64,000 nucleotides of DNA from assembly GCF_001423265.1 (NCBI RefSeq), contig NZ_LMND01000004.1, positions 1-64,000 of the forward strand, read 5' to 3'. Position 1 is the stretch's first letter. Each line of letters starts with the position of its first letter. The notes beneath the pieces were generated by a model. It saw only the letters and a program-made list of their open reading frames with translations, was not told where the DNA came from and searched no databases. This document shows, piece after piece, positions 22,640 through 51,670 of this stretch. This DNA is from Methylobacterium sp. Leaf108 (GTDB lineage Bacteria > Pseudomonadota > Alphaproteobacteria > Rhizobiales > Beijerinckiaceae). The translations under genes were made by a program, and so were the position numbers.

Positions 22640-22925
22640 CATCGGGCGGGGTGCGGCTCACCCCGTCACGGGACACGGCCGCTTTCCCGGAGCAGCGCCG
22701 CGCCGCGAGCCGATCCGCCGCAGGCGCAGGCCCCGGCCGACAGGTCACGCGACCCGCTATCGCGCGCCCTCCGGGCAACTTATGCTAATGCGGACCCGCG
22801 AACATCTGTCGTCTTCGCGCTCGACCGACAATCCGTCGCGCACGCCACGTCGTCCCGTACCCTTTCCTCTGTCGATCGTCTCTACCCAGGGTAGCCTGGC
22901 CGAGACAGGACCGCCGCCGGTGACC

Positions 22926-23651
22926 ATGATATCGCCCGAAGACCTCAAGCTCCTGGTCCGCAAGCTCTCGAGCATCGAACACATCTCCGATGCGGAGAAG
23001 CGGGCCGTCGAAACCCTGCCCTTCACCAAGCGGCGCCTCGACAGCGGCCACGACATCGTCCGCGAGAAGGACCGGCCGACCCAGTGCTGCCTGATCCTCG
23101 ACGGGTGGGCCTGCCGCTACAAGATCCTCACCGAGGGCAAGCGGCAGATCATGTCGTTCCACATCCCCGGCGACATCCCCGACCTGCAGAGCCTGCACCT
23201 GCGGGTGATGGACCACAACCTCGCAACGGTGACGCCCTGCACGGTGGCCTTCATCCCGCACGAGGCGGTCCTCGACATCACCCGCCGCTTCCCGGGCATC
23301 ACGGGCGCCCTGTGGCGCGACACCCTCGTCGACGCCTCGATCTTCCGCGAGTGGATGACCGGCCTCGGGCGCCGCTCGGCCAGCGGGCGCATCGCCCACC
23401 TGTTCTGCGAGATGTACGTCAAGCTGAACGCCCTCGGGCTGGCGGAGGGCTATCGCTGCGAATGGCCGATCACCCAGGTCGACATCGCCGATGCGCTGGG
23501 CCTCTCCAACGTCCACGTCAACCGCGTGCTGCAGGACCTTCGCAGCCAGAAGCTGATCGCGCTGGGCGGACGCACCCTGGTGATCGAGGATTGGCACGGC
23601 CTGACCGAGGCGGCGGAATTCGACCCGCTCTATCTCCACTTCGACGACTGA
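22926..23651 (+). CDS. Crp/Fnr-family transcriptional regulator
   Basis: 241 residues from ATG 22926 (MISPEDLKLL). An N-terminal cyclic-nucleotide-type beta-roll (~20-135) is followed by the dimer helix and a C-terminal winged helix with WPITQVDIADALGLSNVHVNRVLQDLR. There is no Fnr-type Cys cluster, so iron-sulfur oxygen sensing is unlikely. Alphaproteobacteria carry many such stress regulators. The longer open frame from 22782 adds 48 Ser/Arg/Pro-rich residues without domain support. It overlaps the convergent opgH 3' end by 22 bases. Confidence 0.88.
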   Translation: MISPEDLKLLVRKLSSIEHISDAEKRAVETLPFTKRRLDSGHDIVREKDRPTQCCLILDGWACRYKILTEGKRQIMSFHIPGDIPDLQSLHLRVMDHNLATVTPCTVAFIPHEAVLDITRRFPGITGALWRDTLVDASIFREWMTGLGRRSASGRIAHLFCEMYVKLNALGLAEGYRCEWPITQVDIADALGLSNVHVNRVLQDLRSQKLIALGGRTLVIEDWHGLTEAAEFDPLYLHFDD

Positions 23652-32745: not shown

Positions 32746-35700
32746 CTACCATTGGTAGCGGATGCCGGCCCGGCCGCCGCCGCCGAGCAGGTCCTCGCCG
32801 ATGCGGTAGTCGGCCCTCAGGAAGCCGGACAGGCCGGTGGTGAGGTTGAGGAAATTGATCGAGGCCTGGATCTCGCCCCGCGCCTTGTTGACGTTGGTGA
32901 GGCCCGTGAGGCGGGTGCCGCCGCCGAAGGTGGCGGTGGTGCCGGACTCGGTGAAGACGTTGTAGACGAGGCCGGTGATGCTCGGCTCGACCCGGATGTT
33001 GTCCTGCACGAACTCGGTTCCGAGCCGGGCGCCGATGCGGCCGCGGAAGGCGTCGCCGTCCTGCAGCGGCACCGCGTTGGCGGCGAGCACCGGCGTGCGG
33101 TCGAACACCGTCGACACGTATTCGAGGCCCGCCGTCGGCTCGATGTAGAGGGCGTTGGGCAGGTCGAACCGGTAGCCGATGTTGCCCAGCACGTTGTAGT
33201 TCTGCAGGCCGGTCGACTGGCGCACGCCCGGCGCGGTGATGTCGAGGCCGAGCAGGTCGGTCTTGAACAGCGTGTCGGCGAAGAAGCCGCCCTTCAGGTA
33301 GGTGGCGTAGGCGCCCACCGTGCCGCCGTCGTAATCCTGGCGGCCCGCCTGCTGGTTGAGGCGGACGTTGGCGGTGGTGTAGCCGCCCATGACGCCGAGG
33401 ATCAGGCCGTCGTCCGGCGCGGTGACGCCGCTGATGACCACGTCGGCGCCCGCCAGCAGGCCGCCGGTGGCCTGGCTGTAGCCGAGGTCGCGCCCGAAGT
33501 TGGCGCCCCCGAAGGTGAGGGTGCTGAAGCCGGTGCGGCGCTCCATGTCGCCGAAGGCGCGCGCCCAGACGGCGGGCTTGACGTTGCTGGGCGGGGCCGG
33601 CGCCACGATCCTGGGGGCGATCGGGTCCTTGCTCACCAGGGCCGCGTATTGGCCGAGCGGCGCGTATTGCGTCATCTGCGGCAGGGCCGGGGCCGGGGCC
33701 GAGCCGGCGGCGGCGCGCTGGGCGTCGCCGCGGATCTGGGTGACGCGGTCGAGGATGGCGGTGCCGCCCTGGAAGGCGATGCTCTGGGCGGCCAGGACCG
33801 CCGTGGTGCCGGATTGGCCCACCGCGCTGGGCACCGTGACGAGGGAGACGGTGCTGCCGCCTTCCGTGCCGAGGGCGCCGGTGAGCAGCGCCACGTCGAG
33901 GGCGCCGAAGCTCTGGACGTTGGCGATGCCGAAGGCGCCGGGGCTCACCGCCCCGTTGACCTGCACGAGCACCGGCGAGGTGGTGAAGGCCTGCCCCGGC
34001 GTGAGGTTGAGGAGGTTGAGGCCGGTGGTGCCGCCGGCGCTTCCGGTGATCACCAGGCGGTCCGAGGAACTGGTCTGGGTCGAGACGTCGAGGTTCACCC
34101 GGCCGTTCTGGCCGACGTAGTTGCCGTTGATGGTGAGGCTGTCGCCGGCCCGGCCGTTCTGCAGGTCGATCGTGCCCGCGTTGGTGAAGGTCGCCGCCGA
34201 AACGGCGGAGGCGCCGCTCGCCCGTACCACGCCCGAGGCGTTGGTGAAGCTCGACAGGCCGGCCAGGGTCACGTCCGGACCGAGGTTGACGATGCCGGCG
34301 TTGGTGAGGCTGCCGCCGCCGAAGGTGCTGGTGCCGAGCGGGTTGAAGATCCCCGAGGTGTCGTTGCCGAAGCTCGACCCGGCCGAGAGGGCGACGCGGC
34401 CGGCGATCGTGCCGGCGTTGACGACCTGCGTCGCGCCGCGGCTGGCCGTGGTGTCGATCGCCAGGGCGGCGTCGACGAGGCCGGAGTTGTAGACGGTCAG
34501 GGCACCGACCGCCGGGGGGACCAGCCCCTGGGCGGTGGCGTCGAGGACGGCCGCGTCGATGCCGACCGACGCGGTGACGGTGCCCGCGTTCACGACCGTG
34601 ACGGCACCGCCGACGGTGCGGGCGTAGATGCCGGCCGTGCCTGCGGGCACGAAGCGCGCGAAGTCGCTCGGCAGCGTCGCCAGCTGCGCCGTGCTGACCT
34701 GCGTCGGCAGGGTCGCGTCCTGGGTGAGGGTGCCGCGGTTCGTGATCGTGACGGGGCCGAACAGCCCGCCGGCGGCGAGACCGAGCTTGCCGAAGGTCAC
34801 CTGCCCGGAGTTGGCCACCCCGACGCCCGCGCGGGAACCGGCGGCGATGCCCACCGTCGCACCCTGGATCACCCCGTCGTTCGTCGCCACCGCGTTGCCG
34901 CGGGTGGAGCCGGCGGCGATGCCGATGGGCGCCGTGAGGGTGCCGGCGTTGGCGACCTCGACCGAGCCGGTCCCGGCCCGCGCCACGATGGCGGCGGTGC
35001 CGGCCTCGATGGTGCCCGCGTTGGCGACGGTGGCCGAGCCGGCGCCGCCCTGGGTCTCGACCCGGATACCGGCGCCCGCCGCCGATACGATGCGGGCGCT
35101 CGAATCGACGGTGACGGCGACGTTGCCGCCCTGCGAACCGCCGGCCGTCGCCGCCATCACCAGCAGCGCGTCCTGCCCGGCCGCGGCGGTGATGGTGGTG
35201 TTCTGCAGGACGTTGAGGGTGAGCGCCCCGGTCGGCGTGTAGAAGATGCCGCCGCCGTAGACCCCGCGCGGACCGCAGTTGGCCAGCGTCGTGGTCGAGG
35301 CGTTGTCGCCGGCCGAGCAGAGCCGGGCGAACAGGACGCCGCCGTTGCGGACGGGGAACAGGAACTGGCCCGGGGCGCCGCCGTTCGACGCGGTGGCGAG
35401 GGCGAAGGGGCTGCCGTCGAGGTAGTAGCCCGGCACCAGCGCGCCCGGCAGCTGGTAGTAGGTGCCGTCGACGCCGGTGCCGGCCGAATAGCCCACGGCC
35501 GCGGAGGTGCCGCCCAGGCCGTTGGTGCCGCCCGAGGCGTCGCCGGTCTCGAACTGGATGCTGCGGTAGTTGTAAGTGATGTCGAAATTGCCGGCGCCCG
35601 TGTCGGAGCGCTCCGTCAGCACCACCTGGAAGGTGTTGAGCTTGTCGGCCTTCGACGCGAAATAGCCCACGGCCGGCCAGGTCGCACCGAAGGCGGTGCG

Positions 35701-36141
35701 GCCGGCATAGGTGCCGGTGCCGTAGGCGGTGACGCCGCTGGCGGCATTGGTGGTGTCGATGTCGGCGAAGAACGGCGCGATGATGGGGGCGCCGCGATAA
35801 TCGGCGTCGAGTCCGGTGGGCGTGTAATCGCTGAGCGGCCGGCCGAAGGTCACGTTGCCGTTGTTGTTGACGTAGATCTGCGTGTAGTTGCCGCCGAAGA
35901 AGTTGGCCGTGAAGGGCAGCGTCACCGGACCGCTGGAATTGTCGTCCCCGCGCGGGACCTGGGTCTGGTCGAAGCCCGGCGCGATGCCCTGCGCGGTGGC
36001 CTCGGATGCCGTCACCAGCGCCATCGCCAAGGGCAGGACCGCCAGGGATACGCCTGCGAGAAGGCTGGCCCGCAAGGCGCTCCGACGCGAGGCCGATCGG
36101 TCGGCGCGTCCGCCCGGTGCGGTAATGGCGTGAGAATGCAT
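32746..36141 (-). CDS. autotransporter with N-terminal nidogen-like (NIDO) domain
   Basis: 1131 residues from ATG 36141. A long signal peptide (~1-50, ending ASEATAQG) leads to a NIDO-like domain (~55-235: LPFTANFFGG, VNNNGNVTFG, APIIAPFFADIDT, FQVVLTERSDTG, YNYRSIQF). The middle (~290-800) has many short repeats such as VANAGTI and VVNAGTV typical of a beta-helix passenger. The end (~850-1131) is a type V autotransporter beta-barrel starting near AVWARAFGDMERR and finishing with a C-terminal Trp (IRYQW). It is predicted to be an outer-membrane surface adhesin. NIDO domains are usual in animal matrix proteins and rarer in bacterial adhesins. Confidence 0.87.
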   Translation of the reverse strand: MHSHAITAPGGRADRSASRRSALRASLLAGVSLAVLPLAMALVTASEATAQGIAPGFDQTQVPRGDDNSSGPVTLPFTANFFGGNYTQIYVNNNGNVTFGRPLSDYTPTGLDADYRGAPIIAPFFADIDTTNAASGVTAYGTGTYAGRTAFGATWPAVGYFASKADKLNTFQVVLTERSDTGAGNFDITYNYRSIQFETGDASGGTNGLGGTSAAVGYSAGTGVDGTYYQLPGALVPGYYLDGSPFALATASNGGAPGQFLFPVRNGGVLFARLCSAGDNASTTTLANCGPRGVYGGGIFYTPTGALTLNVLQNTTITAAAGQDALLVMAATAGGSQGGNVAVTVDSSARIVSAAGAGIRVETQGGAGSATVANAGTIEAGTAAIVARAGTGSVEVANAGTLTAPIGIAAGSTRGNAVATNDGVIQGATVGIAAGSRAGVGVANSGQVTFGKLGLAAGGLFGPVTITNRGTLTQDATLPTQVSTAQLATLPSDFARFVPAGTAGIYARTVGGAVTVVNAGTVTASVGIDAAVLDATAQGLVPPAVGALTVYNSGLVDAALAIDTTASRGATQVVNAGTIAGRVALSAGSSFGNDTSGIFNPLGTSTFGGGSLTNAGIVNLGPDVTLAGLSSFTNASGVVRASGASAVSAATFTNAGTIDLQNGRAGDSLTINGNYVGQNGRVNLDVSTQTSSSDRLVITGSAGGTTGLNLLNLTPGQAFTTSPVLVQVNGAVSPGAFGIANVQSFGALDVALLTGALGTEGGSTVSLVTVPSAVGQSGTTAVLAAQSIAFQGGTAILDRVTQIRGDAQRAAAGSAPAPALPQMTQYAPLGQYAALVSKDPIAPRIVAPAPPSNVKPAVWARAFGDMERRTGFSTLTFGGANFGRDLGYSQATGGLLAGADVVISGVTAPDDGLILGVMGGYTTANVRLNQQAGRQDYDGGTVGAYATYLKGGFFADTLFKTDLLGLDITAPGVRQSTGLQNYNVLGNIGYRFDLPNALYIEPTAGLEYVSTVFDRTPVLAANAVPLQDGDAFRGRIGARLGTEFVQDNIRVEPSITGLVYNVFTESGTTATFGGGTRLTGLTNVNKARGEIQASINFLNLTTGLSGFLRADYRIGEDLLGGGGRAGIRYQW

Positions 36142-36604
36142 TGTCTGGTGCCCTTTGACCTCGCCAAGACTGTACAGCCAGGTATCCGGATTTGGGTGAC
36201 GAAACGCCTTAACGATTCTAAACCACCTTGAATTTCGAAGGTATGTTGCCATGGTGCCACAAACGCTGTCCCGCCGGGCGAAGACAGAACTTGAGCCGGC
36301 CCCGGAAATTCCAACGCAGTCGTTTCGGCGGAGGGTTGCGTGCGAAGACCGGCGAACACCACGCCGACGCCAGCCGTGCGGTGCCGAGACCCTGAGGGCC
36401 GCGGCATGATTCGCAATCGGCGATTCGGGGACGCGGGCAATTCCGGCGCGAACGCCGGCCGACCGTCTCCGGTGCGTCGTGCCATTTCCGATGGATCACT
36501 CGTACCATTTCCGGGTGATCACTTCGTGATGCGGAAATGGGCTTCGCTCAGGCGCTGCGCGGGCGTGCCGATCCGGCCACCGCGGTCATCGAGCGCTGGC
36601 CGTA
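36142..36604. other. 463-bp intergenic region with dispersed repeat A
   Basis: Between the start of the autotransporter and the end of the caspase-like gene, both on the minus strand. The part next to 36142-36260 is AT-richer and should hold the autotransporter promoter. The part at 36511-36576 is a copy of the dispersed repeat. No gene was found. Confidence 0.6.
36511..36576 (+). repeat. dispersed intergenic repeat, copy A
   Basis: The first ~48 bases (CCGGGTGATCACTTCGTGAT and on through GGGCTTCGCTCAGGCG) are almost identical to the reverse complement of 53006-53053. It contains the small hairpin ATCAC-TTC-GTGAT. A partial duplicate of its edge (CATTTCCG..GATCACT) lies just before it at 36483-36500. 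Confidence 0.8.
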
Positions 36605-39600
36605 TCAGGGCATCCGGCTCATGGCGCGGACCGCGCCGATCTCGGCGGGCGTGACGCTCGGGGCCGAGGAGGCGGTGGCGCGCACCGGGGCCGAGCGGGT
36701 GTAGGTGGACAGGGCCGGCACCTTCGGGGCGGCGCGCACCGGCGCCACGATCTTGTAGGTGGGCCTGGGAGCCGGACGGGCGGCCTCGCGCGGAGCCGGG
36801 CGCACGACCTCGCGCGGAGCGGGGCGGCGGACCTCCCGCTCCACCGGCGGCGCGACGACCTTGCGAGCCGGCCGGACATCCTCTTCGATCTCCGCCGGGC
36901 GCGCCGCCTTGCGGATGCGCGGGGCCGGGTCGACCGCCACCGGGGCCGCCTTGCGCGGCAGGCAGACGCTGTCGCTGAGCACGGTGCCGTTCGGGCAGGT
37001 CACCTTCACGCAGACCTCGCCCTGCTGCTCGCTGCCGGTGGGGCAGATCATCGGGCAGATCCGGCCGCTGTAGCTGTTGAGATCGTCCAGGGTGAGCTGG
37101 TCGGGCAGGGTCGAGGCGATGCGGATGGAGCGGTTGGGGCCGTTGCCGGTCAGCTCGGCCTTGGCCTGATCCGTCTTGGCCTGATCCGTCTTGGCCTGAT
37201 CCGTCTTGGCCCGATCGGCGCGCTTGGCGGCGGCGTAGAACCGGTCGAGGGCCGCCATCGAGTGCCGGCCCCACGAGGCCTCCGGCGGCTCGGTGTAGCA
37301 GCCGAGTTCGGTCAGGCGGCGCTGGACCGCGCGCTGGACCTCGCCCGGGTTGCCCGGAACCGTCGCCTTGACGTCGCCGATCTCCTTGAGGTCGAGGCTG
37401 GCATAGGCGGTGTGGGGCAACTTGGCGGTGTCGGCCTGGGAGGCGGGCGCCCGGTCGGCGGGCGCCCGGTCGGAGGGGGCGACCACGGCCTTGGCCGCGT
37501 CCATGGACAGGGCAAAGCCCCCGGCGGCGGCGACCGGCTCGACCGCCGCGATCCTGGAATCCACCACGGCCGCCATGCGGACCGCCTCGGCGTCCGCCGC
37601 CAGACGAGCCTGCTCTTGCCGGACCTGCTCTTGCCGGACCTGTTCTTGCCGAACCGCGGCGACCTGAGCCGCCGCCTCGGAGGCGATGCGCAGTTGATCG
37701 GCGCGGGCGGTCTCTTCCCGGCGCGACTGCTCGGCGGCGGCGACCCGTGCGGCCTCCTCGCGGCGCGTCTGTTCGATCGCCGCCAGCCGGGTGGCCCTCT
37801 CGGCGTCCGCCCTGGCCTGTTCGATTCTGGCCTGTTCGGCCTTGGATTGCTCGATTCTGGCCTGCTCGGCTCTCGCCTGTTCCTGCCGGGCGGCCTCGTC
37901 GCGGCGCTGCTGTTCGGCGGCGGCCACGCGCGCGGCTTCGGCCTTCGCCTGATCCAGGCGGGCCGCGTCCTCGCGGCGCTGGCGCTCGGCGGCCGCGACC
38001 TGTGCAGCGGCGACCTGTGCGGCCGCGACCTGTGCGGCCGCGACCTGTGCGGCCTTCTCGGCCTTGGCCTGCTCCTGCCGGGCGATCTCGTCGCGACGCG
38101 CCTGCTCGAGGGCGGCGAGGCGGGCGGCCTTCTCGGCCTCGACACGGGCCTGTTCGATCTTGACCTGTTCGATGCGCGCGGCCTCGTCGCGGCGCTTCTG
38201 CTCCAGGGCAGCCAGGCGGGCGGCCTTCTCGGCATCCGCGCGGGCCTGGTCGATCCGGGCCTGTTCCTGCCGCGCCAGCTCCACGCGGGCAGCCTCGTCG
38301 CGGCGCGCCTGCTCGGCGACGGCGAATTGGGCGGCCTTCTCGGCCTCGATCCTGGCCTGTTCGACGCGCGCGGCTTCGTCCCGGCGCTTCTGCTCGGCGG
38401 CGGCCAGACGCGCCGCTTTCTCCGCCTCCGCTTTGGCCTGTTCCTGGCGGGCGAGGCGCGCGGCCTCTTCCCGGCGCAGGATCTCGGCGGCGGCGAGGCG
38501 GGCGGCCTTCTCGGCGTCCAGGCGGGCCTGCTCCTGCCGGGCGCGCTCCTCGCGCCGGATCGCCTCGCGGCGGGCCTCCTCGTCCTGCCGCTGGGCCATC
38601 AGGCGGGCGAGCTCGGCCTGATTCTGCTCCTCCTCGCGGCGCGACTTCTCCATGCTGAGGCGGGCCTGCTCGCGGTGGTTCTGTTCCTCCTCGCGGCGAG
38701 CCCAGAGCTGCCGCTCCTGGGCGCGGCGCTCCTCCTGGCGGCGGTTCTCGGCCTCCTGCTCGGCGTAGCGGGCCTGGTTCTCCAGGAGCTGGATGCGGAT
38801 GCGCGCCGCATCGGCGAGGAAGCTCGCCGGGAACTTCTCGATGAAGGCGGAGAGGTCGGCCACCACGTTGCTGTTGCGCAGGCGGCTCCAGGCCTGGGAG
38901 TCGGTCTCGGCCCGGTTGAGGAACACCTCGTCGGCGTAGGAGCGCGAGAACTCGGGCAGCTGCTTGCCCTGCGTCGCCTTCTTCACCGCCACCGCCACCC
39001 GCTGGAACACCTGCCCGACCTCGAGGCCGGATTCGGCCAGGGACTTGGCCAGCGCCTCGGCGTAGGGGCTGTTGCGGCCCTGGCCGTCGAAGGCGACCTG
39101 GTTGGACTGCGTGGCGTAGGCGATGATCAGGCCGTCGCGGCCCACCACCCGGGCGAGCCCGGTGCCGCTGCCGCGCTTGACGCCCTCGGTGAGCGGCAGG
39201 TTGCGGCAGGCGTCGAGGATCATGATCCGCGCGCCGCGGGAGTTGTCGAGGGCGCCGATGACGCTGTCGACGGAGATCGTCTCGAACGGGATGTCGAACC
39301 CGTCCTTCAGCTGCGCGTCCGTCGGCACCAGGAAGTTCTGGTTCTGGTACTGCAGGCCGTGGCCGGCGTAGTAGACCACCGCCGTCTCGGCGTCGCTCGC
39401 CGCGCGGGAGAACTGCGCCAGCCGCCGGTCCATGTCGCGCTTGCTGAGGTCGCGACCCTCGATGACCGTGAAGCCGATCTGCCGGAGGACGGCGGCGATG
39501 TCTTCGGCGTCGTTGCTCGGGTTGTCGAGCTTGCCGAAGCTGGCGTAGGCGGCATTGCCGATGATCAGGGCGACGCGCTTGCCGGTCTGGGTCTGCGCAA

Positions 39601-39670
39601 CCGCCGCCGATGCCCACATCGTGAGCAGGAGGACGAACAGCGCTGGCAGCACCTTCTTCATGGGCCTCAT
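36605..39670 (-). CDS. caspase-like (peptidase C14) protein with long TolA-like coiled coil
   Basis: 1021 residues from ATG 39670 (39661, MKKVLP, is equally possible). A signal peptide (MKKVLPALFVLLLTMWASAAVAQ) precedes a caspase-like domain (~25-265) with the catalytic His in YYAGHGLQYQN and Cys in LDACRN, both present. Residues ~300-720 are a highly charged Ala/Arg/Glu/Gln coiled coil of the QARxEAExAARLAAxEQ type. The C-terminal third is basic and Pro-rich, with a short CPNGTVLSDSVCLPR segment. It is likely a periplasmic or envelope-anchored cysteine peptidase with a long stalk. Several runs of the stalk are exact 15-base repeats. Confidence 0.87.
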   Translation of the reverse strand: MRPMKKVLPALFVLLLTMWASAAVAQTQTGKRVALIIGNAAYASFGKLDNPSNDAEDIAAVLRQIGFTVIEGRDLSKRDMDRRLAQFSRAASDAETAVVYYAGHGLQYQNQNFLVPTDAQLKDGFDIPFETISVDSVIGALDNSRGARIMILDACRNLPLTEGVKRGSGTGLARVVGRDGLIIAYATQSNQVAFDGQGRNSPYAEALAKSLAESGLEVGQVFQRVAVAVKKATQGKQLPEFSRSYADEVFLNRAETDSQAWSRLRNSNVVADLSAFIEKFPASFLADAARIRIQLLENQARYAEQEAENRRQEERRAQERQLWARREEEQNHREQARLSMEKSRREEEQNQAELARLMAQRQDEEARREAIRREERARQEQARLDAEKAARLAAAEILRREEAARLARQEQAKAEAEKAARLAAAEQKRRDEAARVEQARIEAEKAAQFAVAEQARRDEAARVELARQEQARIDQARADAEKAARLAALEQKRRDEAARIEQVKIEQARVEAEKAARLAALEQARRDEIARQEQAKAEKAAQVAAAQVAAAQVAAAQVAAAERQRREDAARLDQAKAEAARVAAAEQQRRDEAARQEQARAEQARIEQSKAEQARIEQARADAERATRLAAIEQTRREEAARVAAAEQSRREETARADQLRIASEAAAQVAAVRQEQVRQEQVRQEQARLAADAEAVRMAAVVDSRIAAVEPVAAAGGFALSMDAAKAVVAPSDRAPADRAPASQADTAKLPHTAYASLDLKEIGDVKATVPGNPGEVQRAVQRRLTELGCYTEPPEASWGRHSMAALDRFYAAAKRADRAKTDQAKTDQAKTDQAKAELTGNGPNRSIRIASTLPDQLTLDDLNSYSGRICPMICPTGSEQQGEVCVKVTCPNGTVLSDSVCLPRKAAPVAVDPAPRIRKAARPAEIEEDVRPARKVVAPPVEREVRRPAPREVVRPAPREAARPAPRPTYKIVAPVRAAPKVPALSTYTRSAPVRATASSAPSVTPAEIGAVRAMSRMP
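37160..37204 (-). repeat. three exact 15-bp repeats in the caspase-like gene
   Basis: CTTGGCCTGATCCGT occurs three times in a row, followed by a degenerate fourth copy. On the coding strand this gives repeated AKTDQ. Confidence 0.9.
37995..38054 (-). repeat. four 15-bp repeats in the caspase-like coiled coil
   Basis: GCGACCTGTGCGGCC is present four times in tandem (first copy with two changes). The coding strand gives repeated AAQVA within the coiled-coil stalk. Confidence 0.9.
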
Positions 39671-39943
39671 CAGTACACGCCGGGTCGCACGCCGATCAAG
39701 TGACCGGGCGCACCGCCAAGAGATTTCCGCGGCCCGCGCCGGCGCCGATTCACCCGAACATTGAATTGCCACGGAGGATCGGCCGCCAAACCGGAGTCAT
39801 CGTTGCAACGGCGCCGCCCAACACATCATAAGATCGGCTTGGCGAAAGCGCGGCGGTGGTGGAATCTGTCGCGTGATTCGCATGCGCTCCGCATCGACGA
39901 GGTTGGGGAAGACGCATGGTCGAAGACCCGTGGTCGTAGTCCG

Positions 39944-41710
39944 ATGACGATCCGCCCCGCCTGGATCGCCGCCTCCGGCCTCGCCGTGGCCGTGGCCGCG
40001 GCCGCGGCGTGGCCGCTCCTGACGGGCGTCCTGGCGGGGCATGTCCGGGACCGGCTGGCCCGCGAGACGGGGCTGGACTGGCGGATCGGGTCCGTCGCGC
40101 TCGGAGCGGGCCCGAGCCTCGTGCTGTCCGACGTCGGCGCCGGGCGGGCGGGCGCCGGCCTCGGGCTCGACGTCCGCAAGGTGCATCTCTCCGGGCCGTT
40201 CGCCCTCGTCATGGGCGGGGCCGGGGCGCTGCGGGTGCGGGTCGAGGAAGCCCGCCTGCGGCTGCCCCTCGACGGGGAGCCGGCCACGCCCCGGGCGGGC
40301 GGCGAGGGGCAGCCGGGGCTCTCGGCCCTCGCCGGCAGCGCCAGGATCGAGGCCTTCGACCTGTCCGCGGACGGGCGCAGCCTGTCGGTGGCGATACCGG
40401 CCGCCGACCTCACCCTCGATCTCGATTCGGGCCCGGCGCCGGCGGGGGCAACCTACCGGCTCGATCTCGACGCCGGCGGCCATCGCCTGGCACTGGCCCT
40501 CGATCCCCCCGCCGGATCGGGCCGGCCGCTGCGCCTCACCCTCGAACCGGGCGGCCCCTCCGGCCGCCGTGGCACGATCGCGGGCAGCCTGCGTCTCGAG
40601 GGCCGCCGGGTCGCCCTCGACCGCCTCACGGGCACCCTCGACGGTGCGGCTCTCTCGGGCGCCCTGCTCTGCGACCTGCCGGCGGGCGCCTCCGCCAAAC
40701 CGCGGATCGCGGCGGACCTGCGCCTCGACGCCCTCGCCCTGGCGCCGGAAGGATCCTCCACCCGGGCGCCCGCCGGCCTCACCGTGCCCGTCCCGGTCGG
40801 CATCCTGCCCGATCCGCGCTGGTTCGCGGCCGTGGAGGGCGAGGGCCGCATCGCGCTCGGGCGCCTCGTCCTCGGGCCGGCCCGGATCGAGGGCGTCGCC
40901 GTCACCGCCAAGGTGGGCGCGGGCGTCCTCGAGGCCGGGCTCGCGGCGGCCCGGGCCTACGAGGGGACGCTGAAGGTCCGCTACGCCCTGGCACCGGCCG
41001 GAACCGCGGGCCGTCACCGCCTGGGCCTCACCCTGACGCAGGGGCAGGTCCGCCCCCTGCTCGGCGACCTCCTCGGGATCGCCGCCATCGACGGGCGCCT
41101 CACGGCGAGCCTCGACATCGAGGCCGTGGCCGCCCGCCCCGAGGACGTCCCGCGCGCGGCCACCGGCTCGGCGGACATGAGCGTCACCGACGGCACCCTG
41201 GAGGGCTCGGAGCTCCTCGCCGTCCTCGCCTCCCTCGGGCAGGAGCGGGGGAGCGCGGCCACCCGCTTCAGCTATCTCGGCGGGCGCCTGCGCATCGCGC
41301 AGGGAACCGGCGTCACCGAGGGGCTGTCCCTGCGCTCGCCGCTGATCGAAGCCGGCGGCAGCGGCAGCCTCGATCTCGTGGGCCAGACCCTGGACCTCAC
41401 CTTCCAGCCCAGGGTCACGCCCCAGCGCGGGCGCCGGCCCGGCCGCGGGCTCTCCGTCCCGGTGCGGGTGACGGGGCCCTGGCGGGACCCCGCGGTCTCC
41501 GCCGACATGGCGGGGCTGCTCGACGATCCGGCCGGCGCGATGGAGGCGTTGCAGGACCTCGGGACCGGGCTGTTGGGCGGCCCAAGTGCCACCGGCGGCC
41601 CAAGTGCCACCGGCGGCGGCCAAGGCGCCACCGGCGGCGAACTCGGCGGCTTCCTCGACGCCATCCTCCCAAGGTCGCGCCCGGACGCCCCCGTCCCGCG
41701 GCGACGCTGA
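39944..41710 (+). CDS. AsmA-family envelope protein
   Basis: 588 residues from ATG 39944 (MTIRPAWIA). One N-terminal membrane anchor (~6-28) is followed by a long beta-rich periplasmic region. AsmA features are the early GHVRDRLARETGLDWRIGSVAL and the C-terminal DGRLTASLDIEA...TGSADMSVTDGTLEG...LSLRSPLIEAGGSGSLDLVGQTLDLTFQP block (~390-500). AsmA-like proteins bridge the periplasm and are linked to phospholipid transport and outer-membrane assembly. The tail has a short Gly/Ser/Thr repeat from an 18-base duplication near 41580. It is 28 bases upstream of an RND adaptor gene on the same strand. Confidence 0.85.
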   Translation: MTIRPAWIAASGLAVAVAAAAAWPLLTGVLAGHVRDRLARETGLDWRIGSVALGAGPSLVLSDVGAGRAGAGLGLDVRKVHLSGPFALVMGGAGALRVRVEEARLRLPLDGEPATPRAGGEGQPGLSALAGSARIEAFDLSADGRSLSVAIPAADLTLDLDSGPAPAGATYRLDLDAGGHRLALALDPPAGSGRPLRLTLEPGGPSGRRGTIAGSLRLEGRRVALDRLTGTLDGAALSGALLCDLPAGASAKPRIAADLRLDALALAPEGSSTRAPAGLTVPVPVGILPDPRWFAAVEGEGRIALGRLVLGPARIEGVAVTAKVGAGVLEAGLAAARAYEGTLKVRYALAPAGTAGRHRLGLTLTQGQVRPLLGDLLGIAAIDGRLTASLDIEAVAARPEDVPRAATGSADMSVTDGTLEGSELLAVLASLGQERGSAATRFSYLGGRLRIAQGTGVTEGLSLRSPLIEAGGSGSLDLVGQTLDLTFQPRVTPQRGRRPGRGLSVPVRVTGPWRDPAVSADMAGLLDDPAGAMEALQDLGTGLLGGPSATGGPSATGGGQGATGGELGGFLDAILPRSRPDAPVPRRR

Positions 41711-41738: not shown

Positions 41739-42683
41739 ATGACGATGCCTCATCCCCGGTCCCCGGGTCGCACCCGCCTCGCCGCCGTCGCGGGCCTCCT
41801 GCTCGGCCTCCCCCTCGGCTTGGCCCAGGAAACGAGCGCTCAGGAATCGAGCGCTCAGGAGGCGCGGTCGCCCTCGGGCCTGTCGGTGAGCGTGCGCGCC
41901 GCCCGCGGCGTCTGCTTTTCCGACCGGGTCGAGGTCACCGGCGTGCTGGTGGCGCGCCAGGAGGTCGACGTCGGCCCCGAGCGCGAGGGCCTGAAGGTGA
42001 CGCAGGTGCTGGTCGAGCCCCTCGAGAAGGTCGCCGCCGGCCAGTCCCTGGCCAACCTCGGCCCGATGGAAGGGGTGCCCGGCACCGGGACGACGGTGCG
42101 CTCGGGGGTCGCCGGCACCGTCCTGCGCAGCGAGGCCCGCGTCGGATCGCCGGTGTCGCCGCGCCAGGAGCCCCTGTTCCGCATCATGGCCGGCGGCGAG
42201 GTCGACCTGCAGGCGGACGTGGCCCTGGCCGACCTGCCCAAGCTCGCGGCCGGGCAGGCGGTGACGATCGCGCCCCTGGGCCTTGCCGACGTCGCCGGCC
42301 GGGTCCGCCGGGTCGACCGCGGCATCGATCCGGCGAGCCAGCTCGGGCGGGCCCGCATCGCCCTGGCCGCCACCGACGCCGCCCTGCGGGTCGGCACCTT
42401 CGCCCGCGGGGTGATCGTGCTGGCCGAGCGCTGCGGCATCGGCGTGCCCTATTCCGCGATCCAGTACGAAGCCGACGGCACCATCGTCCACACCGTCGAG
42501 GACGACCGGGTGGTGACCCGCCAGGTGACCACCGGCCTGCTGTCGGGCACCGACGTCGAGATCCTGACGGGGCTCACCGAATCGGACACGGTGGTGGTGC
42601 GGGCCGGCGCCTTCCTGCGCGACGGCGACAGGGTCAACCCGATCCTGCGGCGCGAGCCGGCCGGCGGTTCCGGGCCGCGCTGA
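41739..42683 (+). CDS. RND efflux periplasmic adaptor (MFP), first copy
   Basis: 314 residues from ATG 41739 (41745 also possible). A signal peptide (~8-32) ends near the Ala/Gln-rich SAQESSAQEA duplication. The adaptor body has a lipoyl-like half (FSDRVEVTGVLVARQEVDV, VRSGVAGTVLRSEARVGSPV) and beta-barrel and proximal domains (AGQAVTIAPLG, YSAIQYEADGTIVHTV, VVVRAGAFLRDGDRVNPI). The long helical hairpin of AcrA is very short. It should link the RND pump at 42807-45932 to an outer-membrane channel, though it is encoded convergently. It is clearly homologous to the C-terminal part of the cyclase fusion at 50186. Confidence 0.83.
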   Translation: MTMPHPRSPGRTRLAAVAGLLLGLPLGLAQETSAQESSAQEARSPSGLSVSVRAARGVCFSDRVEVTGVLVARQEVDVGPEREGLKVTQVLVEPLEKVAAGQSLANLGPMEGVPGTGTTVRSGVAGTVLRSEARVGSPVSPRQEPLFRIMAGGEVDLQADVALADLPKLAAGQAVTIAPLGLADVAGRVRRVDRGIDPASQLGRARIALAATDAALRVGTFARGVIVLAERCGIGVPYSAIQYEADGTIVHTVEDDRVVTRQVTTGLLSGTDVEILTGLTESDTVVVRAGAFLRDGDRVNPILRREPAGGSGPR

Positions 42684-45932: not shown

Positions 45933-46961
45933 TCAGCGGTTCCTACCGTCGTTCTTGCCGTCGTTCTTGCCGGTGTGACTGCCCGCGTTCTTGCCGTCGT
46001 CCCGGCTCACGACCGGCGTGACGCGGTCGCCCGGCCGCACGGCGGTGCCGGCATCGACCACCACGAGCTCCCCCTCGGCGAGGCCGTCGCGGATCTGGAT
46101 GGTGGTCTCGTCGGACAGGCCGGTGCGGACCCGGCGGCGCTCGACCTTGGTGCCGTTGAGGATCTGCACGCTGGTGACGCCGTTCTGGTAGACCACCGCC
46201 GAGCGCGGCACCGACAGGCCGCAGTCGCGCGCGGTCTCGAGGACGGCGCTGGCGAACTGGCCCGGGCGCAGGGCCGAGGCCGGCTCGATCGTGAGGCGGG
46301 CGCGGCCGAGCTGCGAGGCGGGGTCGACCTCGCTCACCGGCACGCGGACGGTGCCCTTGGCCTCCAGGCCGGGGCCGTAGACGATGCGGGCCGCCGTGCC
46401 GGTGCGGATCTTGGTGGCGTAGGGGCTCGGCACGTCCACGAGCAGGTCGATGCCGCCCTCGCCGGTGATGCGCACCTGCGGCTCGGGCACGCCGCCGGGG
46501 CCGGTGGGCATCGCCGCGCTCGTGGCCATGCCGACGCGGGCGGTGACGCGGGTGACGGTGCCGGCGATGGGCGCGCGGGCGCTGACGCCGGCCGGGCGTC
46601 CCTGCGACGCACCGCCCTCCTCCGCGCCGAGGAGGGAGGCGCGCAGAACCTCCTGACCGCTCGTCACCCTGTCGCCCTCGGCGACGAGGACCTGGGTGAT
46701 GCGGTAGCCGTCCAGCGCGAGGCTGGTGCCGCTCTCCTCGCGGGCCAGCGCGAACCCGGTGATCCGGATCTGCTCCTGAATGCAGGCCTGGCCGGCACGG
46801 ATGCCGATGACGGTGGTGCCCTCGGGCGTGCTCTCGGCCCGGGCGGCCGACGTCGCCAGGGCGAACAGGCAGAGCCCGAGCGCGATTCGCGCGACCCCTC
46901 CGCCAGGGCCCGGGACACTCCCGCCCCGCCCGGGACGACACGCGACGCTGGAGGATTGCAC
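45933..46961 (-). CDS. RND efflux periplasmic adaptor (MFP), second copy
   Basis: 342 residues, GTG start. A signal peptide (~22-42, ALATSAARA) precedes an adaptor body: QEQIRITGFALAREE, VSARAPIAGTVTRV, VDPASQLGRARLTIEP, VPRSAVVYQNGVTSVQI, VDAGTAVRPGDRV. The helical hairpin is short. The tail ends in a Lys/Asn/Asp/Gly repeat (KNDGKNDGRNR) encoded by short tandem units around 45936-45990. It is directly upstream of, and abutting, the RND permease gene, so it is the primary adaptor of that pump. Confidence 0.87.
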   Translation of the reverse strand: MQSSSVACRPGRGGSVPGPGGGVARIALGLCLFALATSAARAESTPEGTTVIGIRAGQACIQEQIRITGFALAREESGTSLALDGYRITQVLVAEGDRVTSGQEVLRASLLGAEEGGASQGRPAGVSARAPIAGTVTRVTARVGMATSAAMPTGPGGVPEPQVRITGEGGIDLLVDVPSPYATKIRTGTAARIVYGPGLEAKGTVRVPVSEVDPASQLGRARLTIEPASALRPGQFASAVLETARDCGLSVPRSAVVYQNGVTSVQILNGTKVERRRVRTGLSDETTIQIRDGLAEGELVVVDAGTAVRPGDRVTPVVSRDDGKNAGSHTGKNDGKNDGRNR

Positions 46962-47048: not shown

Positions 47049-47681
47049 CTAGCGGGCCGCGGTCTTCACCTGGAGCAGGTTCACGGCCTGGACGCGCCGG
47101 TTCTCCATGGCGAAGGGCGCGGCCTGGTTCTTGAGCTTGGTCTTGCCGTAGCCGACCGCGATCAGGTTCTCGGCCGGCAGCTTGTAGGTCGCCACGAGGT
47201 AGCGCTTGACCGCCTCGGCCCGGCGCTCGGAGAGCGTCTGGTTGGCCGCGTCAGAGCCCTTGGCGTCGGTGTGGCCGGCGATCACGAAGGTCTGGTTGGC
47301 GAGTTCCGGCTTCGAGAGTGCCTTGCCGAGGGCGTCGGCGTTCCGGAGGGCCTCGCCGCGCAGCGCGTCGGACCGGAAGTCGAACTCCATCACGAGGTCG
47401 ATGGCCGGCTTGTCGGCGGCCACGGTCTTGAGCTTCTCCCGCGCGCTCGCGCTCAGGTCGCGGCTGCTCTTGTTGCGCAGGGTATCGACGAAGACCTCGT
47501 CGCCGCTCGGCGCGACCCGGGTCGGGGCGCCGATGGACAGGCTGCGGGTCTTGGGCGGCGACAGGGCCTTGAGGATCTCGTCCTCCGTGACCTGCTGCGC
47601 CTGGACGGGCGCCACCGAGGCCAGGAAGGCGACGGCCATCAACCCGATCACACCATGGGAGAGTTTCGAGAAAGTGGTCAT
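47049..47681 (-). CDS. OmpA-family peptidoglycan-binding protein
   Basis: 210 residues from ATG 47681, with a strong GGAGG five bases upstream. A signal peptide (~8-29, VAPVQAQ) is followed by a ~60-residue linker and an OmpA C-terminal domain (~95-200): IDLVMEFDFRSDAL, FVIAGHTDAKGSDAANQTLSERRAEAVKRYLV, LIAVGYGKTKL, ENRRVQAVNL. It binds peptidoglycan (Asp of HTD and Arg of SERR are present). There is no beta-barrel, so it is periplasmic and soluble or lipid-free. It sits alone between the RND operon and the pseudo-caspase gene. Confidence 0.9.
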   Translation of the reverse strand: MTTFSKLSHGVIGLMAVAFLASVAPVQAQQVTEDEILKALSPPKTRSLSIGAPTRVAPSGDEVFVDTLRNKSSRDLSASAREKLKTVAADKPAIDLVMEFDFRSDALRGEALRNADALGKALSKPELANQTFVIAGHTDAKGSDAANQTLSERRAEAVKRYLVATYKLPAENLIAVGYGKTKLKNQAAPFAMENRRVQAVNLLQVKTAAR

Positions 47682-48090
47682 CTCAGCCTCCGAAGTCGCG
47701 CTGTCGATGGACGTGCAACACCGTGTTCTTCCCACGCCCCCAGGCAGCGATCAACAGCATTCGCCCGGTTTTCTCAGACCTTCCGCGCCCTCGGCGAGGG
47801 AAATGTGCAGGCTTGCACAGAGGAGACGCCTCGTAGGCCATGTCATCGCGAGTCATGTGCGCCGGCGCATCGCCGGTCCTCATCATTCCCGCCCCCGGCG
47901 GCCGGCCGATCTGCTGCGGATCGGGCCTTGGTGATTCGGGTCGCCGGACGATCCGACCGCGCGAATCAGGTTTCGCGATCGCCAAAGCAGATTTCGTGAG
48001 GACACCATGCTGGGCCGCACGGCCATCGCGGTCGACCGGCGACGGCCGGGGCCGGCCGCGACGGCGCAGCGGGCGTTTCGCGAGGGACGT
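47682..48090. other. 409-bp intergenic region
   Basis: It carries the promoter side of the OmpA-like gene and the 3' flank of the caspase-like TPR gene; both are on the minus strand. Small open frames exist on both strands but none has motifs or a ribosome site. No repeat or RNA was recognised. Confidence 0.5.
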
Positions 48091-49866
48091 TCAGCGCAGC
48101 CCGTATTGCGCGAAGTCCTTGTCGATCATCGGGTTGAGCGCCAGCGCCCGGGTCAGGTCGTCGTTGGCCTGGGCAGACTGGCCGAGGCGGGAGCGGGCGA
48201 TGCCGCGTCCGTAGAGGGACGAACTGTGGGTCGGCGCCAGCCGCAGGGCCGCGTCGTAGTCCTGGATCGCCGCCTGGAGGGCATCGGCCTTGAGGTTGAC
48301 GAAGCCGCGGCTGTCGAGGGCGTCGACGAAGCCGGGCTTGAGCTTGAGGGCGTCGTTGCAGTCGGACAGGGCCTTGCGCAGGTCGTTGTTGATGGCCCGC
48401 ACCCAGCAGCGGTTGTTGAGGGCCTCGGGACTGGAGGGCTCCAGGCGGATGGCCTGATCGAAATCCGCGATGGCCGCGGGATAGTCGTCGCGCTGGGCGT
48501 GGAACTGGCCGCGCTCGTAGAAGGCGGTGGCATCGCGCGGGTTGCGGGTGATGCGCGCGTCGAGGGAGGCCTTCCGCTGCAGTTCGGCCATCGAATAGGT
48601 CTTGGGGGGCGAGCGCCAGGGTACCGGCGGTGATGGCACCGACGGTGCGGGCTCGGCCGCGGGCGCAGGAGCAGGTGGCGCGGGCGGCGCGACGGCGACC
48701 GGCTTATCGGCCTCGCGCGGCGGGCGGGCGGTGCCCTCGACCCTGGCCAGTTCCGCCCGTGCGGTCTTGGCGAGGGGCCCCGAGGGATGGCGCTTGAGGA
48801 AACCTTCCAGCGCGCCCTTGGTGCCCTTGGCCATGGCGGCATTGAACTCGCGCGCGGTCTCCTCCTCCGCCGCCACCATGGCGTCGATGTCCTTGTCCTG
48901 CAGGGTCGCGGTCGGCTTGGCGGCCTTGTCCTTCGCCGGGGGTTCCTTGGACGACCCCTCTTTGGCGGCTCCCTCCTTGGGTTGCACCTCGGGAGGACGG
49001 GCCGCCGGTGCGGGCCTGTCCTCGACCTTGGCCATGGGGGCGGCCGGCCTCACCCAGGCCGGATCGAACCCGAACGGCTCGGTCGTTCCCGCGATCAGGG
49101 CGGGCTTCTGCTGGTTGCGGCTCGCGCGGGCCACCGCCTCGGCCGTGGCCGCCAGCGCCTGTTCGGCGCTCGCCTCCGGCACGGCGATCTGGCGCACCAG
49201 TTCGGTGGCGAACGGGCTCGTGGCCGCGCGCGTCTCCACGAGGACGCTGCCGGGGGCCGCCGACTGCAGTTCGAGGGTGCGCGGGCCCGGCTTCGGCTCG
49301 GCCAGCCCGGCCGAGAAGCTGCGGAAGCGCCGCTCGAACGGGTTGCGGCGGGCGGCGTCGAGGATCAGGATCCGGGCGCCGGCCCCGCGCCTGTCGAGGT
49401 CGGCCAGGACCGTGTCGAGGGCGATGCCGTCGCGCTGCACGTCGGGCTCGCTCCAGATCCGCGCGTCCACGGGAACGAGGTAGTTCCTGCGCCCGGCCTG
49501 GATGCCGTAGCCGGCGAAGTAGACCAGGGCCACCGCGCCGGTCTCGACCTTGCGCACGAACCGGTCGATGGCGGCCTGGAGGGCGGCCTTGTCGAGGTTC
49601 TCGCCGGTCTCGACGGCGAACCCCTTGCGCTTGAGCTCCTCGGCGAGGAGGCGCAGGTCGCCCGGCGGCGTCGCGAGGGCCGCGTCGCTGTCCGGATAGA
49701 CGGCGTTGGCGACGAGCAGGGCCTGGCGCTGGCGGGACACGCCGCCGGCCGTGGCCGGAGTCGAGGTCAGCGCCACCGATGCCAAGAATCCCGGCACCAA
49801 TCCCGGCACCACGATCAGTCCGGTCGCCAGAACGCGTGTCGCCGCAACGAGTAGACGTCCAAACAT
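48091..49866 (-). CDS. caspase-like pseudo-peptidase with C-terminal TPR domain
   Basis: 591 residues. An export signal (~1-41, TPATAGG) precedes a caspase-like domain (~45-275). The His of the YYAGHG motif is Tyr (VYFAGYGIQ) and the Cys of LDACRN is Ala (LDAARRNPF), so peptidase activity is not expected. A Lys/Ala/Pro-rich linker (~285-445) leads to three or four TPR units (~450-590: AFYERGQFHAQRDDYPAAIADFDQAIRLEP, and so on). It probably acts as a periplasmic scaffold or decoy. It is divergent from the cyclase-adaptor fusion. Compare the intact caspase-like gene at 36605-39670. Confidence 0.87.
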   Translation of the reverse strand: MFGRLLVAATRVLATGLIVVPGLVPGFLASVALTSTPATAGGVSRQRQALLVANAVYPDSDAALATPPGDLRLLAEELKRKGFAVETGENLDKAALQAAIDRFVRKVETGAVALVYFAGYGIQAGRRNYLVPVDARIWSEPDVQRDGIALDTVLADLDRRGAGARILILDAARRNPFERRFRSFSAGLAEPKPGPRTLELQSAAPGSVLVETRAATSPFATELVRQIAVPEASAEQALAATAEAVARASRNQQKPALIAGTTEPFGFDPAWVRPAAPMAKVEDRPAPAARPPEVQPKEGAAKEGSSKEPPAKDKAAKPTATLQDKDIDAMVAAEEETAREFNAAMAKGTKGALEGFLKRHPSGPLAKTARAELARVEGTARPPREADKPVAVAPPAPPAPAPAAEPAPSVPSPPVPWRSPPKTYSMAELQRKASLDARITRNPRDATAFYERGQFHAQRDDYPAAIADFDQAIRLEPSSPEALNNRCWVRAINNDLRKALSDCNDALKLKPGFVDALDSRGFVNLKADALQAAIQDYDAALRLAPTHSSSLYGRGIARSRLGQSAQANDDLTRALALNPMIDKDFAQYGLR

Positions 49867-50185: not shown

Positions 50186-51670
50186 ATGAAGCGCACCATC
50201 GCGGCGATCCTGGCCGCCGACGTCGCGGGGTATTCCCGGCTGATCGCGCAGGACGAGGAGGACACCCTCCGGCGCCTGGCCGACCACACCGCCCTCTACC
50301 GGGGGCAGGTGTCCGAATTCGGCGGCCGGGTCTTCAACACCGCGGGCGACGCCATCCTCGCCGAGTTCCCCAGCGCCGTGGAGGCCCTGCGCGCCGCCAT
50401 CGCGATCCAGCGGGAGCTCGGCCGCCGCAACGACGCGCTTCCCCCCGAGCGGCGGCTGGCCTTCCGCATGGGGCTGACCATCGGCGACGTGGTGGCGGTG
50501 GAGGGCGACCTCCTCGGCGACGGCGTCAACGTCGCCGCGCGCCTCGAGGGCATCGCCGAGCCCGGCGGCATCTGCCTGTCCGCCTCCGTGCACGAGACGG
50601 TGAGCAACAAGGTGCCGGTGCAGTTCCGCGATATCGGCCCGCAGCGCCTCAAGAACATCCCGCGCCCCGTCCATGCCTACCGGGTGGTGTGGCCGCAGGA
50701 GGCCGCCGCCGCGGGGTCGGTGCGCGACCGCTTGCGGCGGAGCGCGCCGGCCCGCCGCTGGCTCCTGGTCCCGGCGCTGGCCGTGCCGGCGGCCCTGGCG
50801 CTCGCCCTCCGGGCCGGTCCCCTGCCGTGGCGGGACGATCCCGCCGATCCGCCGGGCGATCCCGTCGTCACCGAAGCGCTGCCCGTGAGCGTCATCGCGG
50901 CGCGACACCTCTGCTTCAAGGACGAGGTCCGGCTCGGGGGCGTGGTGGTGCCGCGCCGCGAGATCGAGGTCCGGCCCGAGGGCGAGGGCCTGCGCGTCCT
51001 CACCGTGGCGGTGGAGCCCCTGGCCAGGGTCGCCGCCGGCCAGGTGCTGGCCACCCTCGGGCGCCTGCACGGGCCGGAGCAGCCGCCGGTGACCTTGAGG
51101 GCGCCGGCCTCGGGGGTGGTCGGGCGGGTTTCGGCGACGCCGGGGGCGCCCGTCACCGCCGCCGGCCCGGCGCCGTTCCAGATCGTGGCGCAGGGCGAAT
51201 TCGAACTCGCCGCGGAGGTGCCGTTGTCCGACCTCGGCCGGATCGCGGCGGGCCAGCCCGCCACCGTCACGCCGCTCGGCCTGCCCGAGAGCCGCGGCCG
51301 GGTCCGGACCGTGTCGGCCTCGGCCGAGGGCGCCTCGCAGTCGGGGCGCGTGCGCATCCAGATGGCGGAGGCCGGCGAGCCGCGCCAGGGCACCTTCGCG
51401 CGCGCGGTGGTGACGGTGGAGGAACGCTGCGGCACGGCAATACCGGCCTCGGCCGTGATGATCGGCGAGGAGGGCCGCTTCGTCTACCGGGTCGAGGACG
51501 GCCGGATCGAGCCGCGCCTCGTCACGATCGGACTGTCGGCGGGTGGGGACGTCGAGGTGCGCGGCGGCCTCGAGCGGAACGACGTCGTGGTCGCCCGCGC
51601 CGGCGCCTTCCTGCGCGAGGGCGCGGCGATCCGGCCGATCCGCGTCGAGGCCGGACGAGCGGCCGATTGA
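50186..51670 (+). CDS. class III nucleotide cyclase fused to an RND-adaptor-like periplasmic module
   Basis: 494 residues from ATG 50186; a GGAGGG lies immediately before it. Residues ~1-170 are a class III cyclase domain: metal Asp in AADVAGYSRL and in NTAGDAILAEF, plus GDGVNVAARLEGIAEPGG with the transition-state Asn and Arg. A membrane span follows (~190-210, WLLVPALAVPAALALAL). Residues ~235-490 match RND/HlyD adaptors and align with the 41739-42683 adaptor throughout (CFKDEVRLGGVVVPRREIEV; VVVARAGAFLREGAAIRPI). Topology: cyclase in the cytoplasm, adaptor in the periplasm. It could couple periplasmic efflux state to cAMP or cGMP. Product specificity is not decided. Confidence 0.88.
   Translation: MKRTIAAILAADVAGYSRLIAQDEEDTLRRLADHTALYRGQVSEFGGRVFNTAGDAILAEFPSAVEALRAAIAIQRELGRRNDALPPERRLAFRMGLTIGDVVAVEGDLLGDGVNVAARLEGIAEPGGICLSASVHETVSNKVPVQFRDIGPQRLKNIPRPVHAYRVVWPQEAAAAGSVRDRLRRSAPARRWLLVPALAVPAALALALRAGPLPWRDDPADPPGDPVVTEALPVSVIAARHLCFKDEVRLGGVVVPRREIEVRPEGEGLRVLTVAVEPLARVAAGQVLATLGRLHGPEQPPVTLRAPASGVVGRVSATPGAPVTAAGPAPFQIVAQGEFELAAEVPLSDLGRIAAGQPATVTPLGLPESRGRVRTVSASAEGASQSGRVRIQMAEAGEPRQGTFARAVVTVEERCGTAIPASAVMIGEEGRFVYRVEDGRIEPRLVTIGLSAGGDVEVRGGLERNDVVVARAGAFLREGAAIRPIRVEAGRAAD

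Follow-up and report, generated by a model that had tools for sequence, protein, structure and literature searches.

A class III nucleotide cyclase joined to a hairpin-less RND adaptor in Methylobacterium, and its co-inheritance with an RND pump

Each half of the protein described here belongs to a known family. In the passages cited, CyaD1, CyaD2 and CyaK of Sinorhizobium meliloti are receptor-like CHASE2 adenylate/guanylate cyclases, so alphaproteobacteria do convert outside signals to cyclic AMP (cAMP) through receptor-like class III cyclases (PMC13001267). On the transporter side, BesA of Borrelia is described in the cited portion of its source as a hairpin-less adaptor of the resistance-nodulation-division (RND) type (PMC3807786), and TriABC of Pseudomonas aeruginosa has, in the part cited, more than one adaptor gene per RND permease, as does the locus treated below (PMC8277102). 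We describe a gene of Methylobacterium sp. Leaf108 (assembly GCF_001423265.1) that joins the two families. It lies in a stretch of 64,000 nucleotides (contig NZ_LMND01000004.1, positions 1 to 64,000), which we call the window. Its product carries a class III cyclase domain, a predicted membrane span and a hairpin-less RND adaptor body in one chain, and within the genus its presence follows that of an RND permease encoded at 42807 in the same window. The gene, hereafter the fusion, is laid out as follows.

50186..51670 (+): fusion gene, class III cyclase, membrane span and hairpin-less RND adaptor, 494 residues (profile matches, orthologues)
50186..50689 (+): cyclase homology domain, residues 1-168, in which Asn51 takes the place of the usual Lys and Asp12, Asp55, Asp108, Asn115 and Arg119 are invariant
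50762..50818 (+): predicted membrane span, residues 193-211, with a positively charged cytoplasmic side (hydropathy and charge count)
50867..51643 (+): adaptor body, residues 228-486, predicted periplasmic, made of lipoyl halves with a short joining loop, a beta-barrel and a membrane-proximal part, with Cys243 and Cys415 invariant (Pfam, NCBIfam, alignment, model, and Foldseek with BesA as best match)

The reading frame is open upstream as far as 50054, and 50186 is the likely start because orthologues begin at the same KRTIAAILA-type sequence. Pfam places Guanylate_cyc (PF00211) at residues 7-152 (E 3.4e-6, above the cut-off), HlyD_D23 at 299-397 (6e-9) and HlyD_3 at 303-395 (8e-9); NCBIfam places RND_mfp (TIGR01730) at 303-484 (2.1e-28, above the cut-off). 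In sequence searches of the PDB, the best match of the cyclase part was 3mr7 (E 1.4e-42 to 1.1e-41), and the adaptor part matched MexJ (9.1e-12) and ZneB (4.1e-11). No CHASE2 match was found in the fusion by Pfam up to E 0.01. The protein has a single hydrophobic segment, at 193-211, with 6 Lys or Arg among the preceding 20 residues and 5 Asp or Glu among the following 20; one span with this charge bias fits a cyclase inside and an adaptor outside. A hydropathy scan of the linker region puts the strongest hydrophobic stretch at residues 182-211 in 11 of 12 fusions. In the remaining one, from genome G269, the scan chose 221-239 instead, yet a Trp-rich hydrophobic run is found at the usual place.

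In the structure model, the adaptor part is almost all beta and has no hairpin, with a block-mean predicted local distance difference test score (pLDDT) of 71-91 over residues 231-470, and the eight best Foldseek matches of this part are BesA chains at 18-20% identity. Where RND adaptors carry an alpha-hairpin, a short loop is found in the fusion and in both of the adaptors encoded near it. The cyclase half of the model is unreliable (pLDDT 22-44 over residues 1-170), probably because the alignment there was too thin (2 rows), and homology was used in its stead. Conservation was read from an alignment of 12 fusions, with that of genome G297 left out. Asp12 and Asp55, which we take by homology to be the metal residues, and Asn115 and Arg119, presumably the transition-state residues, are invariant in all 12, as are Asp108, Arg94 and Lys156. 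Mean pairwise identity is 72.5% in the cyclase, 27.3% in the linker and span and 50.5% in the adaptor. Cys243 and Cys415 are likewise invariant (12/12) and occur in the two neighbouring adaptors as well; a bond between them is possible. This conserved catalytic set suits a working cyclase, whose product would be cAMP or cyclic GMP (cGMP).

An earlier note on this DNA, made from its letters alone, had read the gene as one protein holding a cyclase domain with intact metal and transition-state residues, a single membrane span and an efflux-adaptor body. The three-part architecture was confirmed by the profile and PDB matches and the one hydrophobic segment, and the coordinates of the open reading frame were right. 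The metal and transition-state residues are indeed all present, but at position 51 the usual Lys is replaced by Asn. Similarly, the body belongs to the RND adaptor family, as TIGR01730, the model and Foldseek agree, but it lacks the alpha-hairpin.

A full-length fusion is present in 10 of 111 Methylobacterium genomes, namely that of Leaf108 and nine others at 54-61% identity. In an eleventh (G297), residues 1-101 reach the end of one contig, and the adaptor half with the span region begins at another. Among 199 genomes of the family, a second genus supplied two further full-length copies (G104 and G173), and a profile search of 397 family genomes returned 8, all among those already found. No full-length fusion was seen outside Methylobacterium in 397 genomes of the order, nor besides our own in 385 of the class, in searches that scored only 3-4 candidates per genome and that distant versions could escape. 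Exact patterns from the protein, run against named genome contigs, matched in one relative, Methylobacterium sp. J-078, whose protein is identical to the G269 copy. Absence from all relatives had been put forward as the refuting outcome; the test was run, and orthologues are present in Methylobacterium and the second genus. A frameshift or chimera is ruled out, the junction being open in 12 different full-length sequences. No interrupted fusion was encountered, and a TGA flagged in G292 is its natural stop. Plasmid-borne spread was also rejected, as none of 444 matching plasmid records (72,556 searched) contains 80% of the query in one place.

The distribution of the fusion coincides with that of the pump. 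An RND protein at least 79% identical to the one at 42807 (a line set after viewing the data) occurs in exactly the 11 Methylobacterium genomes with the fusion, so that presence of the two is concordant in 111 of 111. Nine other Methylobacterium genomes have an RND protein at 73-74% identity together with the stand-alone adaptor, and no fusion; the best of the rest among the matches listed reaches 58%. Kinship was taken into account with a fabA-fabB-fabI tree of 62 genomes, comprising the 11 with the fusion, 8 of the nine with a 73-74% pump and 43 of the 91 others, with 49 left out. On this tree, the fusion changes seven times, and the RND protein at the 79% line follows in all seven independent pairs (sign test, p 0.0156). 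When RND proteins of at least 73% are counted, 6 or 7 of the 7 pairs are concordant (p 0.0156-0.031). The uncorrected Fisher value of 2e-15 ignores kinship and is not to be used by itself.

Taken together, we give about an even chance (roughly 0.5) to the following explanation: the fusion is a receptor-type class III cyclase with an RND adaptor as its periplasmic part, which docks on the RND permease at 42807 and reports the state of this pump as cAMP or cGMP. The cyclase domain would be cytoplasmic, with one helix passing through the inner membrane. The hairpin-less body, by an assumption drawn from family membership, would bind the periplasmic face of the permease, either alone or mixed with the two ordinary adaptors. 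Class III cyclases act as dimers, and adaptors pack side by side around the RND trimer. Because of both, the way in which the cyclase domains pair, and with it the output of cAMP, or possibly cGMP, would depend on assembly at the pump or on the motion of the pump as it transports.

The phylogeny of each half adds to the picture. In a tree with 34 stand-alone domains, the cyclase halves of the 13 fusions group as a single clade, with support of 100/99, and thus have a single origin. The adaptor halves also group together; their nearest neighbors are the stand-alone adaptors of the Methylobacterium genomes with the 73-74% pump and no fusion, and not those of the fusion-bearing genomes, which stand apart. 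In the window, the pump belongs to a cassette of genes which, in the order given here, leads up to the fusion.

32746..36252 (-): NIDO-domain autotransporter, found near the caspase-like gene in fusion-less cassettes too (domain match, synteny)
36605..39772 (-): caspase-like protein in which the His and the Cys motif are both present, start uncertain (Pfam Peptidase_C14 5.3e-41, motifs)
39761..41710 (+): AsmA-like protein, start uncertain (below the cut-off here, 2.2e-4; the L086 orthologue is above it, 5.7e-15)
41739..42683 (+): stand-alone hairpin-less adaptor with a signal-peptide-like start, to which the adaptor half of the fusion is closest (48%) within the rest of its own genome
42807..45932 (-): RND permease, with an orthologue of at least 79% in exactly the fusion-bearing Methylobacterium genomes (Pfam ACR_tran 4.9e-223, distribution)
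45933..46961 (-): adaptor A of the RND operon, hairpin-less too (Pfam, NCBIfam, alignment)
47049..47735 (-): OmpA-family envelope protein (Pfam OmpA 1.4e-18)
48091..49866 (-): caspase-fold and TPR protein with a signal-peptide-like start and with catalytic His and Cys replaced, a pseudo-caspase (Pfam Peptidase_C14 4.1e-25 and TPR, motif alignment)

The segment 39761-47735, with its RND permease, two hairpin-less adaptors, OmpA-like and AsmA-like proteins, recurs as a unit in Methylobacterium and partly in some relatives. It may be an envelope or lipid transport machine; the AsmA-like partner invites a guess at lipid or envelope traffic, and a machine of hairpin-less adaptors might not meet a TolC-type duct in the usual manner. 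In the caspase-fold/TPR protein, the catalytic His is replaced by Tyr in 4/4 aligned copies and the Cys by Ala here and by Ser in three relatives, a pattern that resembles the Tyr/Ser pseudo-orthocaspases in the cited abstract of PMC6426788. PADLOC matches this protein with a caspase model (4.7e-7), its one match among the six window proteins scanned besides a weak one to the fusion, and a defence role was set aside. A Crp-family regulator with a cyclic-nucleotide-binding domain, a possible receiver, is encoded at 22782-23651 (+), about 27 kb from the fusion.

The surroundings of the fusion vary among genomes (the names htpG, fab and DUF3429 were assigned by eye). G269 has the same cassette genes in a different order, and G273 has most of them. 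In the remaining eight fusion genomes of Methylobacterium, the core of the cassette (AsmA-like, adaptors, RND, OmpA-like, caspase/TPR) is located elsewhere, and in G285 it is on two contigs. In G049, G162 and G266 (L036, L037, L079), fabA-fabB-fabI follow the fusion closely downstream and share its strand; it is beside htpG in G290, G292, G208 and G297, and near a DUF3429-like gene in G285; a caspase-like gene adjoins it in G285, G297 and G173. Genomes G216, G217 and G234, which group with G290, G292 and G208 on the tree, have htpG and the DUF3429-like gene adjacent with no fusion between them, and a pump of at least 73% is absent as well. In G266, a single contig carries fusion and pump with some 235 kb between them. 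They are on separate contigs in G049, G162, G208, G285, G290 and G292, where separate contigs of drafts may still be close; in G297 the distance might be some 45 kb, provided that its contigs are arranged as they are in relatives. In G285 (L078:7946-9428, -), LuxI-like and LuxR-like genes, named by eye, are found immediately upstream of the fusion.

The nine Methylobacterium genomes with the 73-74% pump and no fusion have a second kind of cyclase, represented by the following gene.

L040:4195-5202 (+): soluble class III cyclase with a C-terminal FHA domain (relatives in L091, L202-L205 and L207-L209)

A cyclase-FHA gene, as assigned by Pfam, is present at 71% identity or more in all nine (the query being from one of them), with a match in G212 that spans one TAG. 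At this level it was found in 0/11 fusion genomes and in 0/39 cassette-less genomes tested (of 91); weaker copies (49-53%) occur in G297, G214, G208 and G292. In eight of the nine, it adjoins the caspase-like gene, the NIDO gene or both, while in G223 some 20 kb separate it from the caspase-like gene. Thus, all 20 Methylobacterium genomes with a pump of at least 73% have one of the two cyclases: in the genus, the pump system comes with a cyclase in either form, a rule that fails outside it. As each of the cyclase types goes with one RND group, a single swap may account for the pattern; moreover, co-occurrence of the FHA type is by itself weak evidence, given its physical linkage to the cassette. 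Somewhat short of even odds, and hence tentatively, we picture an envelope machine of RND permease, hairpin-less adaptors, AsmA-like, OmpA-like and caspase-like proteins whose state is read by a dedicated class III cyclase, either fused to an adaptor or separate as cyclase-FHA.

How well does a pump-docked receptor withstand the rest of the data? The earlier note had proposed that the protein could sense adaptor assembly, envelope load or a pump substrate and turn this into cAMP or cGMP, and had suggested testing its interaction with the pump at 42807. The proposal is supported in part: the fusion is tied to the pump in its distribution, and the conserved catalytic residues suit a working cyclase, but an "efflux adaptor" in the drug-pump sense is doubtful because the hairpin that meets TolC-type ducts is missing. 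A link to this pump is favored by co-occurrence in 111/111 genomes and 7/7 contrasts, but several observations weigh against it or against the wider explanation. The fusion neighbors the pump genes in only 3 of 11 genomes, and when the three are removed, 4/4 pairs are still concordant with a p of just 0.125. With the line at 73%, 9 of 20 pump genomes are without the fusion. In other genera of the family, an RND protein of at least 69% occurs in 6 among 189 genomes, of which only G104 has the fusion and 5/6 do not; neither cyclase was seen within stretches of 15-20 kb round the pump and stand-alone adaptor of G174, G146, G198 and G071, or within 39 kb in G013. Conversely, G173 (77% complete) has the fusion and no RND match at 1e-250. 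The clade of adaptor halves among the stand-alone adaptors has a support of just 81. Finally, Asn51 is found in 12/12 fusions where 3mr7 has the usual substrate-specifying Lys; LipJ (1ybt) has Asn too, and this residue is therefore a subtype trait that does not exclude the fusion from the class III cyclases.

That the fusion is away from the pump genes in 8/11 genomes would also be expected of a receptor which stands alone in the envelope, its adaptor body recycled as an undocked sensor of a ligand or of stress, much like the CHASE2 modules of rhizobial cyclases, and regulating or monitoring the same pathway as the pump. Three close stand-alone cyclases were examined; one stops soon after the cyclase, and the two scanned (L014, L011) have the same start and run into a long C-terminal region without a Pfam match, so this cyclase type takes different partners. 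We nevertheless consider such a receptor unlikely. In the tree, the adaptor half falls among the cassette's own stand-alone adaptors, the body is retained except for its hairpin, which exceeds the needs of a mere ligand pocket, and the presence of the fusion is tied to the pump.

This tie could itself be indirect if fusion and cassette were vertically inherited and lost together by chance or lifestyle, with no direct functional connection. The fusion and adaptor A share their branching order, and vertical descent is therefore likely; only four contrasts are left once the three genomes with neighboring genes are removed, and each RND group has its own cyclase type, in what may be one swap. Against this, all seven separate changes are concordant, and 0/111 genomes have the fusion and not the 79% pump, or the reverse, which makes mere hitch-hiking rather improbable. 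Less probable still is a protein that serves mainly as a membrane-anchored third adaptor, its cyclase domain being a relic with a structural or regulatory role. The Asn at the substrate-specifying position would agree with this, but Asp12, Asp55, Asp108, Asn115, Arg119, Arg94 and Lys156 do not vary, and conservation is higher in the cyclase half (72.5%) than in the adaptor half (50.5%). Synthesis of a cyclic nucleotide at the pump, destined for export and not for internal signalling, would explain why cyclase and adaptor are joined, but it can hardly be credited given that the active site is predicted to be cytoplasmic and RND pumps of this class draw their substrates from the periplasm or membrane.

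Should docking on the pump be borne out, a pump part would double as a second-messenger enzyme, and the cell could turn the state of an RND complex directly into cAMP or cGMP. As far as the open-licence PubMed Central (PMC) text searched goes, this would be the first case of a transporter adaptor being such an enzyme in its own right. It would provide a handle on how bacteria know the activity of their RND pumps and on the purpose of hairpin-less adaptors, and the cyclase-FHA swap offers a natural comparison. Through the caspase-like partners, cyclic-nucleotide signalling would be connected with envelope proteolysis. A cyclase-adaptor fusion was not found described in open-licence PMC text (titles and abstract openings), and the joining of the halves, a hairpin-less adaptor as the sensory half and the tie to the cassette have no match there.

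Among known systems, the cyclase of Pycsar defence shares the cyclase fold. This candidate was rejected: the PADLOC PycC match is just 8e-4 and covers the cyclase domain only, and no Pycsar effector was found among six window proteins scanned. The neighbors of the fusion in the window are RND, adaptor, OmpA, caspase-like and flagellar genes. LipJ (Rv1900c, 1ybt) shares the NTAGD motif with Asn for the usual Lys; however, it is distant (3.2e-11) and is joined to an alpha/beta hydrolase instead of a membrane adaptor. On the adaptor side, BesA is without a cyclase domain. For TriABC, no enzymatic adaptor domain is mentioned in the cited part of its source (PMC8277102), and the adaptors of the cassette, unlike it, are hairpin-less. 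A parallel in signalling is found in CyaD1, CyaD2 and CyaK, which, according to the cited passages, are alphaproteobacterial class III cyclases that turn an outside signal into cAMP, with the outer-membrane barrel NsrA upstream (PMC13001267). Their sensory module is CHASE2, whereas that of the fusion is an RND adaptor.
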